From Methanosarcinales archaeon (GTDB lineage Archaea > Halobacteriota > Methanosarcinia > Methanosarcinales > Methanosarcinaceae), in the NCBI GenBank assembly GCA_012329085.1, contig JAAXQB010000227.1, positions 1 through 5,046 on the forward strand: a stretch of DNA of 5,046 bases, read 5' to 3'. Below are positions 1 to 5,020 of this stretch, piece by piece (the stretch's first letter is position 1; each line of letters starts with the position of its first letter). Made by a program: the position numbers and the translations under genes. The notes under the pieces are model-generated. The model had not been told where the DNA came from. It worked only from the letters and a program-made list of their open reading frames with translations, and made no database searches.

Positions 1-65
1 GAAAGCTCATTCGGAAAGCTCATTCGGAAAGCTCATTCGGAAAGCTCATTCGGAAAGCTCATTCG
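1..65. repeat. Five perfect 13-bp tandem repeats (GAAAGCTCATTCG)
   Basis: The 13-base unit GAAAGCTCATTCG occurs five times without a mismatch and begins at the first base of the window, so the run may continue to the left. Each unit is the left arm of the first hairpin (GCTCATTCG) plus a GAAA spacer. The last copy supplies the left arm of the hairpin at 57-77. The absence of mismatches suggests recent expansion, for example by slippage at a hairpin arm. I see no coding potential that makes sense here: 13 is not a multiple of three, and no gene-like protein results. Confidence 0.95.
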
Positions 66-259
66 GAACGAATGAGCGTATGAGAAAATCTCTGATTTTC
101 GAACGAATGAGCGTAATCACTCGTTCTTTTAGAACGAGTTTAATAAAATCTCTGATTTTAGAACTAATGATTGCAATCGCTCGTTCTTTTAGAACGAGTT
201 TAAGAAAATCTTTGATTTTCGTTCTAAATGAGCGTTTGCTCATTCTCAAAGAGAATGAG
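57..259. repeat. Array of alternating three-base-loop hairpins (types A and B)
   Basis: This stretch is almost entirely perfect inverted repeats. Type A hairpins: 57-77 (arms GCTCATTCG/CGAATGAGC, loop GAA), 119-139 (ACTCGTTCT/AGAACGAGT, loop TTT), 180-198 (CTCGTTCT/AGAACGAG, loop TTT) and 239-259 (CTCATTCTC/GAGAATGAG, loop AAA). Type B hairpins: 84-100 (GAAAATC/GATTTTC, loop TCT), 144-160 (TAAAATC/GATTTTA, loop TCT) and 204-220 (GAAAATC/GATTTTC, loop TTT). All have three-base loops. A is joined to B by TTTAA-like linkers at 139-143 and 199-203. Unpaired right-arm copies of A lie at 104-112 and, decayed, at 165-172. It is not CRISPR: there are no unique spacers of even length. Likely alternatives are a REP/BIME-like element, a MITE remnant, or a transcribed 5'-leader structure for the gene at 290. 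Confidence 0.9.
101..220. repeat. Two tandem copies of a 60-bp unit within the hairpin array
   Basis: Bases 101-160 and 161-220 align end to end with 52 of 60 identical. Each unit contains a right arm of hairpin A, a complete A hairpin, a TTTAA linker and a complete B hairpin. A shortened third version, lacking the A hairpin, is seen at 66-100. The difference at the outer B pair is compensated: T144 with A160 in the first unit becomes G204 with C220 in the second. The unit length is a multiple of three, so both strands stay open and give artefactual repeated peptides. Confidence 0.88.
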
Positions 260-289
260 TGTTGGCTCGTAAATTATCATTTATGAATT

Positions 290-1186
290 ATGCTATTTCC
301 AAGTAAATACAAATGTATTGGTCTTACTAAATCTCTCCCTGCTATTGATGATGATAAAAATAACACCATTTATTTTTTAACAGAATACTTAATCGCAGGA
401 ACAGATGATAACCCTTCGATATATTTTGTAAATAAAAATATAGACAACGAAAGTTTATTGCAAAGCGTAGAATCGCTTGATTTAATTGCAAAAGGGAATG
501 AGATAGTATGGCATGATAAAGAATTAAATATAAAAAATCGTACCCTTTTAATAGATGAAGCATTAGAAATATGTGCAAATAAAAAAGATGTGACAACTGT
601 AATTTTTACAGGAATAGATAAACACATAACATTTGTACATAAACCAGACCTTTCAGAATCACTTGAAATAGAAATAATTGATATAGTCCCACCAAAGCCT
701 GCATGGCTTATATATGTTATTGAGAAACTTGAATCTGTAAATTTATTTGGGGATTTTGGGATTCGGTTTAGTAAAAATATCATAGACCTTTCAAAATTTG
801 AAGGTACGCAATCAGTATTTCCGTGCTCTGCATCAGGACTTAAAGGCAAATATTTAGATTCGGATACTATCACAGAAAAAGGCTCATTGCTTATTGGGTG
901 CGAAATATCAAAAAAATTGTTTGAAACAAAGTTTGAAGGACTTGGATTTGATTTTATTAATATTTGTCCATTTAAATCAGATCTATTTAAGCCTACAAAA
1001 CCATTCATAACAAGGTGCTGTCTTACAGAGAATTCTGGACTTACTAAATTAAAAGGCATAGATGGCGTAGTTGTGCATTGGGGTGCATCTGAGTTTGATA
1101 TTGCAGAAGCAATAAAGAAACTTGCACTACACCTTAGATCTAAAAATAAAAACAACAATATAAATTATGAAACTTGCAGTAGTTAA
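290..1186 (+). CDS. Conserved-looking protein of unknown function, 298 aa, coupled to the dehydrogenase gene
   Basis: I do not recognise this protein with confidence; it may belong to an uncharacterised family of methanogen-type archaea. It has no signal peptide and no clear membrane helix, so it is probably cytoplasmic. Visible landmarks are a VPPKPAWL segment (residues 133-140), FPCSASG (177-183), IGCEIS (202-207), NICPF (224-228), a CC pair at 243-244 and a VVHWGAS stretch (261-267). The cysteines C179, C204, C226 and C243/C244 lie 17-25 residues apart in the C-terminal half and could bind a metal or an iron-sulphur cluster; this is inference. The ATG at 290 is preceded directly by an in-frame TGA at 284-286, so translation cannot begin further upstream. 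No Shine-Dalgarno sequence is seen. Its last 20 bases overlap the next gene in another frame, suggesting co-transcription and translational coupling. The tail after about residue 283 is Lys/Asn-rich and probably disordered. Confidence 0.88.
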   Translation: MLFPSKYKCIGLTKSLPAIDDDKNNTIYFLTEYLIAGTDDNPSIYFVNKNIDNESLLQSVESLDLIAKGNEIVWHDKELNIKNRTLLIDEALEICANKKDVTTVIFTGIDKHITFVHKPDLSESLEIEIIDIVPPKPAWLIYVIEKLESVNLFGDFGIRFSKNIIDLSKFEGTQSVFPCSASGLKGKYLDSDTITEKGSLLIGCEISKKLFETKFEGLGFDFINICPFKSDLFKPTKPFITRCCLTENSGLTKLKGIDGVVVHWGASEFDIAEAIKKLALHLRSKNKNNNINYETCSS

Positions 1187-2165
1187 AGGCGATGGAATTG
1201 GAAGGGAAGTTATAACAGAAGCTATTAAAGTACTTGATGCATTCAATCTCGATATTGAAAAAATTCCTCTTGAAATAGGTTATTCAAAATGGGAAAAAAC
1301 AGGTTTTGGAATAACAGAAGAAGATATAGATATTTTAAAAACGAGTGATTACATTCTTTTTGGAGCAATCACAACCCCAAAGAATAAAAATTATAAGAGT
1401 GTGCTTTTAACTATTAGAAAAGAGCTTGACCTTTATGCAAATGTTAGACCAATTAAACCAATTGAAGGTATAAAAGGTATAGGTAAAGACAATTTTGATT
1501 TTGTTATTGTGCGAGAGAATACAGAGGGAATGTATTCTGGAATTGAAGAGTCTGATGAGTTTGGAGCATATACAAAAAGAGTTGTGACTTATGAATGTTC
1601 AAAACGAATTGCAGAATATGCATGCGAGCTTGCAAAGAAAAGAAATGATAAAGTCACAATTGTGCATAAATCAAATATTCTAAAATCTGATAAACTTTTT
1701 TTAAAAGTAAGTTCAGATATTGCTAAATTAAATGGTGTTGAATATGATGATGCATTAGTAGATTCTTTTGCTTATCATATGATGGCATTTCCTGAAAAAC
1801 AAGGAGTTGTTGTGACTACAAATTTATTTGGAGACATTTTAAGCGATTCAGCCGCAGCTCTTGTTGGGGGACTTGGGATTGTTCCAAGTGCGAATATTGG
1901 GAAAAAATATGCGTTTTTTGAGCCAATACATGGAAGTGCACCTGATATTGCAGGAAAAAATATTGCAAACCCAATTGCTGCAATACTTAGTGTAAAAATG
2001 TTACTTGAACATATTGGATTGATTGAGGAGGCGAATATTGTGTATGAAGGAGTATGCCATGCAATAGAAAAGAAAATTATAACGACTGATCTTCAAGGGA
2101 GTGCAACAACAAGTGCAGTAGGAGATGCAGTTGCTAACTATTGTCGTGCATCATTAAAATGTTAG
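1167..2165 (+). CDS. leuB: 3-isopropylmalate dehydrogenase-like NAD-dependent beta-decarboxylating dehydrogenase
   Basis: This 332-residue protein has the normal length and full motif set of the isocitrate/isopropylmalate dehydrogenase family, which oxidatively decarboxylates 2-hydroxy acids in the cytoplasm. Motifs in order: KGDGIG (7-12), LLTIRKELDLYANVRP (80-95), VRENTEGMYSG (115-125), HKSN (167-170), NLFGDILSD (219-227) and HGSAPDIAGKNIANP (255-269). By alignment to the Thermus enzyme from memory, R84, R94 and R116 bind substrate, Y123 and K168 are catalytic, and D199, D223 and D227 hold Mg2+ or Mn2+. D260 in the APDIAGK segment indicates NAD rather than NADP. L80 and L81 sit where isopropylmalate dehydrogenases contact the isopropyl group, whereas isocitrate dehydrogenases have Ser/Asn there, so LeuB in leucine synthesis is the best call. 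Homoisocitrate (AksF) or citramalate-pathway activity cannot be excluded, and leuC/leuD are not present here. The ATG lies inside the end of the preceding gene. Confidence 0.9.
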   Translation: MKLAVVKGDGIGREVITEAIKVLDAFNLDIEKIPLEIGYSKWEKTGFGITEEDIDILKTSDYILFGAITTPKNKNYKSVLLTIRKELDLYANVRPIKPIEGIKGIGKDNFDFVIVRENTEGMYSGIEESDEFGAYTKRVVTYECSKRIAEYACELAKKRNDKVTIVHKSNILKSDKLFLKVSSDIAKLNGVEYDDALVDSFAYHMMAFPEKQGVVVTTNLFGDILSDSAAALVGGLGIVPSANIGKKYAFFEPIHGSAPDIAGKNIANPIAAILSVKMLLEHIGLIEEANIVYEGVCHAIEKKIITTDLQGSATTSAVGDAVANYCRASLKC

Positions 2166-2332: not shown

Positions 2333-2375
2333 CAAAATCAAAGATTTTTTTAAACTCATTCTGAAAGAATGAGCG
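2333..2375 (-). repeat. Dispersed, inverted copy of the A-B double hairpin
   Basis: Read on the minus strand, these 43 bases match 178-220 of the left array at 38 positions. The A hairpin is CTCATTCT (2355-2362), loop GAA, AGAATGAG (2366-2373). The B hairpin is AAAATC (2334-2339), loop AAA, GATTTT (2343-2348). Two of the five differences are the two sides of one A-stem pair (A:T here, G:C in the array), so pairing is kept. The outermost B pair is lost here. The copy ends 28 bases before the start codon of the binding-protein gene, in the place where a promoter or leader would be. Confidence 0.88.
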
Positions 2376-2403: not shown

Positions 2404-3330
2404 ATGATTTTATCATTATTATTGATAATGTCTATGATTTTTTCAATTGGTATTGTTGCTGCAGAATCGCCAGAGCGAATTGTATCACTTGCACCAAGTA
2501 ATACTGAAATTCTTTTTGCAATAGGCGCAGGAGATAGAATGGTTGGAGTGACTACATTTTGTGATTATCCAACTGATGCAAAAGACATAGAAAAATTGGG
2601 TGGGTTTTATCCTGATGCTCCTGAAAAAATAGTTAATGCAACACCTGATATTATTTTTGCAAGACCACATAATAAGGAAATGATTGAAGGTATAGGAAAA
2701 ACAAATATTACAATTTTTATTGATGAAAAAAATGTAGAGGACATATTTGAAAATATTAAATTAATTGGAACTCACATAGGAAATTTACCTGAAGCAGAAA
2801 CATTAGTGAATGATATGCAAAGCCAATTACAAATTATAGAAAATGTAGTAGAAGGAATTCCAATAAATCAAAACCCTCGAATCTTGTATATAACATGGCA
2901 TGGCCCAATATTTGCAGCAGGTCCTGATAGCTTTATTGGAAATATAATTAATATTGTAGGCGGCATAAATGTTGTAGAGGAAGGAGATTGGTCTGTTATC
3001 GGAATTGAATCTATTGTGGATATGAATCCAGATGTTATAATTGCTTCAAATGAAATGGTTCAAGATGGAATTATAACAAATCCTGCATTATCAGGAATCG
3101 ATGCTGTGGCAAATGGAAAAGTGTTTGTTATGAATGATGAAAATATAATATCAAGACCAGGACCACGGATTGTAGATGGTATTGAAGATATGCATTCTAT
3201 TATACTTCAAAATTTAAAACCTGAGTTAGAACCTGAACCAAAACCAGTAGTTCCAGGATTTGGAATAGTTGCTACAATACTTGGATTTTTTGTATTAGCG
3301 AAATTAATGCAAAAGAAAAATAAAAAATAA
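2404..3330 (+). CDS. BtuF/FepB-like ABC-transporter substrate-binding protein with PGF-CTERM anchor
   Basis: This 308-residue protein is a periplasmic-binding-protein fold of the cobalamin/ferric-siderophore class, acting outside the cell membrane to capture a corrinoid or iron chelate for an ABC importer. Residues 1-20 form a hydrophobic signal segment ending in VAA/ES. The family opening RIVSLAPSNTEILFAIGAG (25-43) is followed by the VTTFCDYP region (49-56), and RPGPRIVDGIED (251-262) is the usual C-terminal lobe motif. A Pro/Glu linker (272-283) leads to PGFG (284-287), a hydrophobic stretch to about residue 299 and a KKNKK tail. This is a PGF-CTERM signal, processed by archaeosortase A. 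Two N-glycosylation sequons (N78, N101) are visible. The ligand cannot be fixed from sequence; corrinoid is slightly favoured by the BtuF-like CDYP region. Permease and ATPase genes are absent. The signal peptide lacks the usual Lys/Arg before the hydrophobic core, yet no in-frame ATG, GTG or TTG lies between this ATG and the upstream stop at 2362. Confidence 0.9.
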   Translation: MILSLLLIMSMIFSIGIVAAESPERIVSLAPSNTEILFAIGAGDRMVGVTTFCDYPTDAKDIEKLGGFYPDAPEKIVNATPDIIFARPHNKEMIEGIGKTNITIFIDEKNVEDIFENIKLIGTHIGNLPEAETLVNDMQSQLQIIENVVEGIPINQNPRILYITWHGPIFAAGPDSFIGNIINIVGGINVVEEGDWSVIGIESIVDMNPDVIIASNEMVQDGIITNPALSGIDAVANGKVFVMNDENIISRPGPRIVDGIEDMHSIILQNLKPELEPEPKPVVPGFGIVATILGFFVLAKLMQKKNKK

Positions 3331-3469
3331 ATTATAGTATAAATTATGTTGATTTTTTGAAATAGATTGTCATTACATAAAATTATAATTTTTGCGAATA
3401 TTGTAGATATTTATTATAATTTTGCTAATCTATTGAAACTCTTGCCAATATTATTGCTTTCATAATTTT
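3331..3469. other. Convergent intergenic gap with AT-rich imperfect repeats
   Basis: These 139 bases separate two genes that face each other, so promoters are not expected; termination for both is. T-runs suit the plus-strand gene (3387-3393), and A-runs in plus orientation suit minus-strand termination only weakly. A loose motif, TTGC-N-AAT followed by ATTG, recurs near 3391, 3421 and 3441, and ATTATAATTTT appears near 3382 and 3413. No gene or RNA is evident. Confidence 0.5.
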
Positions 3470-4855
3470 TTATTTTAAATATATTTCATCTTTCACATAC
3501 TTCGCATTTAACCAAAAACAATGCTTTGTATATTCCGTTGCGTTTGTTAATCTGTCTTTTACTGGTAAACCATAACAATCTTCTTTATTTCTTGCGTGAG
3601 GTCTTACATGACTAATTCTATTCTCTATTTTTTTAGGAAAATATGTTTTTCGAATTCCTTTATCAGTAATTTCTTTTACTATTTCTCCTTTATTTATTGT
3701 TACAATAGTATTGTCCCAAACTTGTTTGACTTCCTCTATGTCAGAATATGCCATATTCCAAAATTTTACTTTTTTCAATGTTAAAATTCCGTTTTTAAAT
3801 TTGTAGAAAACAAAAAAGAATTTTTGTTCTAAAATATGTTTAAAATCACTTTCTTCCCAATCTATTTCAACTATTTCTTCATATTTGAAGTTTTTGAAAG
3901 AAATATCTTCTTTTGGAAGATTATTTTCCTTTAATCGAATTGTTTTTACTTGAATATCTGCTTTTTCAAATTCTTCAATTTTCTTGTTTAAACCAATTCC
4001 TAAAATTGCTTTGGTAAGGTTAGCAAAATAACTCTTTGCTTTTCTATTTAATTCAAGATTGAAGTGTTCTTCCATTTCAATAGAAGTTTTTCCGTAAAAA
4101 TGTTCAAATTTTGAAATTACAATTTCTTCAATTGAAGGTAGTTGCTCAAAAATTGTTTCTTGAGTTAGAATTTTACCATAGGTGGCTTGTTCTTCTTGAG
4201 TAATATTTGCAATTATATGATTTACATAACCTTGTTTTAAAGAATATGCTCTTTGTTTTGCTTTAATTTCATTAAAAGGTTGGTTTCTTAATGATTTTTC
4301 TGCTGTTGAACCTTTGGTGCAAGCACCTAAATAAAATGTATCTCCTTCCGATAATTCGTGTGCTTTTCCGTCCTTTATTTTTTTATTAATAGTTTCCCAA
4401 TCAAATTTAATTATTTGCAAATCTTGATTTGGATATTTCCAATCGTCAACAAGTTTGATTGGGTAATCTATTAAATCTTTCTCTTTGTCAGGTAGATAAA
4501 AGATAAATAATAAATGAGCGTTCTTTTTCCAAAATGAACTGTTTTCAAATTCTTCTTTATGTACTTCTAAATAATTGATAATATTTAATACAATTCTTTC
4601 TTTTGATCGAAATTCTCCGTTTTTGAGTATCTTCAAAGGGCTGGATTTAAGTTCCATTCCAACTTGGTCAAAGTCTGCTTCTGCTTTTGGATTTGGCTCA
4701 TATCCGAAATAAAATTTTTCCAATATTTGACCAAACTTGCCTTTTCCTTTGTAACTGTGTTTTTCAATTTCAACACCACAAGATTGTCTTAATGTCTGAT
4801 TCTTTAGTTTTTTAGCAAAATCAATAATCGAATCTGCTAAATTTGCTTTATACAT
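3470..4855 (-). CDS. Sau3AI/MutH-family restriction endonuclease, probably GATC-specific
   Basis: The protein is 461 residues from the ATG at 4855, or 467 from a TTG at 4873; the ATG is preferred because neither has a ribosome site. Sau3AI, at 489 residues, is similar in size and likewise has two MutH-like halves. In the N-terminal catalytic half, GQILE (42-46) and ADFDQVGMELKS (60-71) match the MutH active-site pattern: E46, D61, E68 and K70 correspond to MutH E56, D70, E77 and K79. GDTFYLGACTKGS (171-183) and KAKQRAYSLK (198-207) follow, as is usual in the family. The C-terminal DNA-binding/regulatory half shows KTIRL (304-308), FWNMAYSD (365-372), HVRPHA (416-421) and CFWLN (446-450). The expected reaction is Mg2+-dependent double-strand cleavage of unmethylated GATC; specificity is inferred from the family. 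It should protect against foreign DNA and needs a GATC methyltransferase, which is not in this window and may lie beyond the right edge. The gene looks intact and is probably horizontally acquired. Confidence 0.9.
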   Translation of the reverse strand: MYKANLADSIIDFAKKLKNQTLRQSCGVEIEKHSYKGKGKFGQILEKFYFGYEPNPKAEADFDQVGMELKSSPLKILKNGEFRSKERIVLNIINYLEVHKEEFENSSFWKKNAHLLFIFYLPDKEKDLIDYPIKLVDDWKYPNQDLQIIKFDWETINKKIKDGKAHELSEGDTFYLGACTKGSTAEKSLRNQPFNEIKAKQRAYSLKQGYVNHIIANITQEEQATYGKILTQETIFEQLPSIEEIVISKFEHFYGKTSIEMEEHFNLELNRKAKSYFANLTKAILGIGLNKKIEEFEKADIQVKTIRLKENNLPKEDISFKNFKYEEIVEIDWEESDFKHILEQKFFFVFYKFKNGILTLKKVKFWNMAYSDIEEVKQVWDNTIVTINKGEIVKEITDKGIRKTYFPKKIENRISHVRPHARNKEDCYGLPVKDRLTNATEYTKHCFWLNAKYVKDEIYLK

Positions 4856-4973
4856 AGAAAAATTTCTTAGCAACTTTAGTTTCTAATAAAAATTTTAATC
4901 TTAATTAGACTTGTTGCAAATTAGAGATTATGCTTATGAGAATTTTGATTTACCTCTCTTTTTACTTTCCCAA

Positions 4974-4999: not shown

Positions 5000-5020
5000 G
5001 CTCATTTGGAGCAAATGAGC
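5000..5020. repeat. Third-site hairpin of type A
   Basis: Arms GCTCATTTG (5000-5008) and CAAATGAGC (5012-5020) pair perfectly around a three-base GAG loop. The GCTCATT/AATGAGC ends are those of the left array's A hairpins, and AAATGAGCGTTT (5013-5024) is identical to 226-237. The TTTAA after it (5022-5026) matches the A-B linker, but no B hairpin is recognisable before the window ends. It lies upstream of the minus-strand endonuclease gene. Confidence 0.85.

Follow-up and report, generated by a model that had tools for sequence, protein, structure and literature searches.

A probable family of dispersed composite hairpin repeats from a low-GC, uncultured archaeon in or near the Methanosarcinales

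Dispersed hairpin families are known from bacteria and mitochondria, as three papers document (PMC2817692, PMC3733652, PMC2800124). Bacterial REPs and BIMEs are described there as short palindromes with short loops and stems of mostly 6 to 9 bp, mostly intergenic and often clustered or in tandem; the palindrome is preserved by complementary changes, and some copies are intragenic (PMC2817692, PMC3733652). The RHE (double hairpin elements) of sponge mitochondria are portrayed in PMC2800124 as hairpins of two types that adjoin one another and make up double or multiple hairpins between genes, with incomplete copies and with stems that differ by complementary substitutions. Short intergenic stem-loop repeats (REPs) have been reported in archaea too, in the RepRanger paper (PMC12306157); the word Methanosarcina is absent from its main text, and the likeness of those repeats to the unit presented here is one of description only.

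We analyzed a window (i.e., the whole stretch of DNA, a contig of 5046 bases with 29.6% GC and four recognized genes) that begins with a hairpin array. The repeated unit is 42 nt long and consists of a hairpin with a 9-bp stem (B), a 4-base spacer (TTAA), and a hairpin with a 7-bp stem (A). The unit probably belongs to a dispersed, intergenic family of composite hairpin repeats that would have spread in its host, an uncultured archaeon of low GC content that belongs to or stands near the Methanosarcinales. Most likely, our analyses suggest, this family resembles the bacterial REPs/BIMEs or the mitochondrial hairpin elements and was locally amplified by tandem duplication.

The resemblance to REPs and BIMEs lies in short palindromes (stems of 7 to 9 bp; 3-base loops) that are located outside genes, are clustered, and carry complementary stem changes. 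Set against the 5- to 13-bp stem and short loop of REPs, stems measured 7 to 9 bp and loops 3 bases. Regarding REP-type dispersal, there were three sites outside recognized genes in 5 kb, and relatives on five other contigs were found in translation. Unlike the bacterial families, the unit has an archaeal host, joins two different hairpins, and has no GTAG/CGTC tag, which REPs carry unpaired at one end of the stem-loop. Of 10 hairpins examined, 0 had the tag on either strand, whether inside the stem or up to 10 bases away from it, and it did not occur anywhere in positions 1 to 290. In REP/RAYT systems, the repeats flank a cognate Y1 transposase gene; no RAYT/Y1 transposase was among the four recognized genes of the window. 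The likeness to RHE consists of repeated, often double hairpins between genes with complementary stem changes, which were found here as well; those elements are mitochondrial, whereas the window carries archaeal-type genes of Methanosarcinales affinity, and a sequence relation is not expected.

An initial annotation of this DNA had proposed a REP/BIME-like unit, a single-strand transposase substrate of the IS200/IS605 or RAYT kind, or a protein-binding array. The first proposal is supported in that the repeats are composite, lie outside genes, occur in two orientations, have compensated stems, are present in more copies than the array contains, and have given rise to reading frames on five other contigs; membership in a RAYT-type REP family is not supported, given the missing GTAG/CGTC and transposase. 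That annotation had also set the array apart from CRISPR and from simple terminators, and both distinctions stand. The DNA between the hairpins is itself repeated with a period of 60, unlike unique CRISPR spacers, and no cas gene is among the four recognized genes. Intrinsic terminators have a GC-rich stem with a T run directly after it. Four sites in the window resemble such bacterial-type terminators; they include positions 5000 to 5020, but neither the array hairpins nor positions 2333 to 2374.

Hairpin array and its copies in the window

Seven perfect triloop hairpins with stems of 7 to 9 bp lie within positions 57 to 259, in the order B-A-B-A-B-A-B (Table 1). In 2000 first-order Markov resamplings (stem of at least 7 bp), triloop hairpins in the first 290 bases averaged 0.0645 and never exceeded 2, compared with the 7 observed. 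A chance origin of the array was ruled out on this count (7 hairpins versus 0.06 expected). The remainder of the window contained 2 triloop hairpins (2355 and 5000), compared with a mean of 1.05 and a maximum of 5 in 100 resamplings. Folded as single-stranded DNA, positions 1 to 290 had a z score of -8.8, which was equaled by none of 200 shuffles.

Table 1. Coordinates of repeats, hairpins, and genes in the window
Feature	Positions	Strand	Basis and details
13-bp tandem repeat GAAAGCTCATTCG	1..68		Tandem Repeats Finder: 5.2 copies, 100% matches
B hairpin 1	57-77		Stem 9, loop GAA; hairpin scan and B model
60-bp tandem repeat (A hairpin, B-like half arm, B hairpin)	83..219		Tandem Repeats Finder: 2.3 copies, 88% matches; repeat families D3 and D4
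A hairpin 1	84-100		Stem 7, loop TCT; hairpin scan
A-to-B linker with B-like half arm GAACGAATGAGCG	101..118		Direct reading
Composite unit: B hairpin 119-139 (stem 9), TTAA, A hairpin 144-160 (stem 7)	119..160	+	R1, 69.7 bits; model-building copy
Composite unit: B hairpin 179-199, TTAA, A hairpin 204-220 (stem 7)	179..220	+	R1, 71.5 bits; model-building copy
Overlapping alternative (eighth) hairpin	227..244		Stem 7, 4-base loop
Last B hairpin of the array	238..260		Perfect core 239-259, stem 9, loop AAA
DUF7714 family protein	290..1186	+	PF24830, E 8.7e-87; start codon agrees with 8 aligned homologues
Isopropylmalate/isohomocitrate dehydrogenase type protein (leuB-type)	1167..2165	+	TIGR02088, above cut-off
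Dispersed composite unit, inverted	2333..2374	-	R1, 67.7 bits (model-building copy); inverted repeat I1, 44 nt, 91% complementary to 176-219
Periplasmic-binding-protein type ABC substrate-binding protein	2404..3330	+	PF01497
Sau3AI-family type II restriction endonuclease	3470..4873	-	NF040973, 515.6 bits
Dispersed B-type hairpin	5000..5020		Stem 9, loop GAG; hairpin scan and R2

The number of perfect triloop hairpins, their two types, and their stem lengths were as the initial annotation had reported. Its description of hairpins lying almost end to end is not strictly accurate: the A-to-B gaps span 18 to 19 nt and, by direct reading, hold variants of a half arm resembling that of B (GAACGAATGAGC and similar). 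Likewise, the linker that it gave as a fixed TTTAA (i.e., the TTAA gap plus one stem base) is present at two of the three B-to-A junctions, but the first junction reads GTATGA. Its view that the array was not an ordinary tandem repeat has to be abandoned, as the array is itself the 60-bp tandem repeat of Table 1. The limits of 57 and 259 were accurate, whereas the whole unit at 2333 to 2374 and the B hairpin at 5000 to 5020 had been missed. The possibility that no further copies exist anywhere, which it had named as counting against a dedicated element, did not come about: copies are present in the window, although 237 genomes were searched without finding the unit.

The B hairpin near position 180 has a perfect core at 180 to 198 (stem 8) that an outer G-T pair extends to 179 to 199 (stem 9). 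At the other end of the array, the 13-bp repeat, which corresponds to the left arm of the B hairpin plus a short spacer, extends to the contig start. The contig thus starts inside a perfect tandem repeat and may have ended there because of it; the exact number of 13-bp repeats at the edge could be an assembly effect. At 90% identity, the cluster that includes the DUF7714 protein was found on ten contigs, the longest of which has 5046 bases, and the hairpin repeats may cause contigs of this host to break off early. Two mechanically called open reading frames cross the array (2 to 286, plus strand; 46 to 249, minus strand) and were regarded as spurious because they are made of repeat.

The three copies that start at 119, 179, and 2333 (alignment A3) served to build a model of the 42-nt unit (R1; B, TTAA, and A). 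The unit at 57 to 100, which was omitted from A3 owing to its longer spacer, was nevertheless recovered by R1 (37.7 bits; E 1.4e-6). The inverted copy at 2333 to 2374 is located 2.1 kb from the array, between the leuB-type and binding-protein genes, and the outermost pair of its A hairpin is mismatched. A second model (R2) of the 21-nt B hairpin was built from five B copies (alignment A4). The hairpin at 239 to 259 was excluded, as its stem has one additional pair next to the loop, and the hairpin at 2354 was entered in the orientation of the unit (minus), in which its outer pair is G-U (A-C on the plus strand). R2 detected one further B copy (238 to 260) and no other site in the window with an E value below 1e-3. 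The hairpin at 5000 to 5020 is situated 5' of the Sau3AI-family gene. All three sites (the array, 2333 to 2374, and 5000 to 5020) lie outside recognized genes, in DNA that makes up 16.6% of the window; three independent sites would do so by chance with a probability of about 0.005. A weak B-like hairpin at 4520 to 4539, inside the restriction endonuclease gene (E 0.06), is perhaps due to chance.

Host lineage and occurrence of the repeats elsewhere

In species genomes, the ten highest-ranking relatives among the matches listed for the dehydrogenase were 63 to 67% identical, and nine of them were named as Methanosarcinaceae or its genera. For the DUF7714 protein, the ten best relatives beyond its own cluster (among the 120 best of 451 matches) were 57 to 62% identical, and the named ones were Methanosarcinaceae, Methanococcoides, or Methanohalobium. 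Judging from these protein identities, the host is a distinct lineage within or near the Methanosarcinales.

When the repeat open reading frame of the window was compared with 5.8 billion proteins, five matches were obtained (E values of 5.5e-5, 0.0083, 0.015, 1.5, and 2.9), corresponding to proteins P0121 to P0125 on five other contigs. In tblastn searches against the repeats of the window, these gave E values of 1e-11 (P0121), 2.6e-9 (P0122), 8.6e-9 (P0123), 4e-11 (P0124), and 6e-9 (P0125), which are to be read in light of a 5-kb target and of proteins preselected by the search with the same repeat reading frame. A query that joined frames returned three proteins, all among P0121 to P0125; the query held similar pieces, so its E values are not independent. 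Most of B, TTTAA, and A is present in translation in P0121 and P0122 (SFFQNEFKKIFD), and relatives of the 13-bp repeat are present in translation in P0121 and P0124. A codon-degeneracy hairpin test on P0121 to P0125 performed no better than it did on shuffled proteins in any of the five. These reading frames, from contigs known as translations only, plausibly come from the host of the window.

P0125 (HF967_08595; a partial sequence under the record name Methanosarcinales archaeon) matches a protein family over its first 117 to 118 residues. Counted from the same point, the family members of all five loci (five of five) end after 123 to 124 residues, and the repeat-derived residues of P0125 (121 to 141) begin near where these homologues end. 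The repeat is therefore at the 3' end of that gene, a conserved archaeal one, which reads into the repeat over residues 120 to 143 and thereby gains approximately 19 residues. The best match to P0125 among 185 genomes of the order was 46% identical, so that the genome it comes from is apparently not one of these. Misassembly of the whole array is unlikely in view of the inverted unit 2 kb away and the repeat translations on other contigs.

The B pattern was detected in 0 of 19 genomes, which stand for 19 of 20 loci chosen. With two variable positions, it was found once in each of 5 of the 185 genomes of the order of G001 (locus L001), compared with 4 of 185 for the reversed control, and arrays of the pattern were present in none of the 185. 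A stricter B pattern occurred in isolated form in 2 of 237 genomes of one class (reversed control, 2), and the unit model found none in the 237 genomes of the class in a search run with strict filters and without a positive control. Upstream of DUF7714, no hairpin array was observed in any of the 27 relatives with 289 bases of upstream sequence, two of which had one unrelated hairpin each; three of the 30 DUF7714 loci (L003, L006, and L015) had too little sequence to be counted. Hairpin clusters in 91 loci comprised at most 3 hairpins within 205 bases (2 loci), compared with 7 in the array here. Of six pattern scans of viral contigs, five were empty and one gave a single match (L091), which consisted of an A hairpin alone; R2 found nothing there, and we attribute the match to chance. 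As far as the searched genomes tell, the family is apparently confined to the host lineage. Among the open-license papers listed for palindromic or extragenic repeats in Methanosarcina or the Methanosarcinales, double hairpin elements, and Lost City archaea, no description of the unit was seen, and of three strings of the repeat only the shortest was present, in two open-license papers that were unrelated by title.

Stem pairing and explanations for the repeats

Across the five B copies, 45 of 45 stem cells were paired (two as G-U, which are A-C mismatches on the opposite strand). Four of the nine pairs had changed on both sides (A-T to G-C, C-G to T-A, T-A to G-C, and G-C to A-T), and no such pair was seen when partners were slid by 1 to 3 columns. 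The covariation score was reached by 1 of 500 shuffles, as was the percentage paired; 32 of 500 had as many two-sided changes, and 341 of 500 as many pair types. For the composite unit, represented by three sequences only, 70 of 500 shuffles reached the covariation score. Pairing may have been kept because the folded strand is under selection, or because palindromes are made perfect as they are copied.

We propose that copies of the unit would spread as non-autonomous palindromic elements, with the hairpins recognized as single strands by an enzyme acting in trans. An HUH/Y1 transposase would be the leading candidate; alternatively, copies may have spread by template switching at replication. 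Arrays could then grow via unequal exchange or slippage, and effects on nearby transcripts, if any, would be secondary. Y1 transposases were present in 7 of 10 neighboring genomes, but none of these had the B pattern; the enzymes therefore demonstrate availability and do not prove a role. It is possible, but doubtful, that the repeats belong to an archaeal mobile system, in which the TTAA-joined two-hairpin unit would be copied as single-stranded DNA by an HUH-type enzyme in trans, producing BIME-like arrays and genome-wide copies that are devoid of GTAG and sometimes extend the 3' end of a gene (P0125). A two-hairpin archaeal family, if true, opens the question of whether archaea have a RAYT-like mobilization of their own.

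We think it unlikely that the repeats act primarily as RNA, i.e., that transcribed hairpins function in 5' leaders or at 3' ends in mRNA stability, processing, or termination. Such a role would agree with the strong folding of four units as RNA (z scores of -3.7 to -4.5), the location of the G-U pairs at the outer stem pair of B hairpins, the repeat at the 3' end of the P0125 gene, and the position of two sites that end 29 to 30 bp upstream of start codons (2404 and 290, the latter being that of DUF7714, 30 bp beyond the last perfect core of the array). However, the unit faces one way with respect to the downstream gene in the array and the other way at 2333 to 2374, the only convergent intergenic stretch (3331 to 3469) is without such a hairpin, and the hairpin at 5000 to 5020 is the sole family member among the terminator-like sites. 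Nor was there any Rfam match in the window at the gathering score; a sub-threshold miRNA match was located at 4801 to 4852.

An origin of the hairpins and of the 13- and 60-bp repeats as selfish palindromes born from replication slippage or template switching alone, with no enzyme or function, also has a low probability. The 13-bp repeat includes one B arm, the 60-bp repeat is in tandem, and template switching alone can keep stems perfect, all of which this origin would explain; alone, it fails to account for the inverted 42-nt unit 2.1 kb away and for the repeat reading frames on other contigs.

That the array represents palindromic operators for a dimeric DNA-binding protein near a DUF7714-leuB promoter appears very improbable. 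The sites are dyad symmetric with conserved half-sites and are directly upstream of two genes whose linkage extends to relatives. Against this, hairpin centers alternate at distances of 23 to 25 and 37 bp with a 60-bp period, which are not whole helical turns (a turn of DNA is 10.5 bp), and copies are found near unrelated genes. Compensated pairs in triloop hairpins are what the folding of a strand would predict, and operators do not need them. Finally, hairpins are substrates in the IS200/IS605 and attC systems, but an identity as IS200/IS605 ends, integron attC sites, or CRISPR is scarcely credible, as the four recognized genes include no transposase, integrase, or cas gene, the DNA between hairpins is repeated, and blastn with positions 1 to 290 found no match at E 1e-5 among 50,697 records of phages and 72,556 of plasmids.

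Neighboring genes

A DUF7714 relative was located within approximately 1 kb of a leuB-type dehydrogenase in 30 of the 91 loci, 80 of which had been retrieved via the dehydrogenase. This proximity suggests a linked function of DUF7714.

No methylase was among the four recognized genes of the window, which carries the gene for the Sau3AI-family endonuclease. Sau3AI cleaves GATC, and the window contained 4 GATC sites, compared with 13.6 predicted from its base composition. This scarcity would fit site avoidance.
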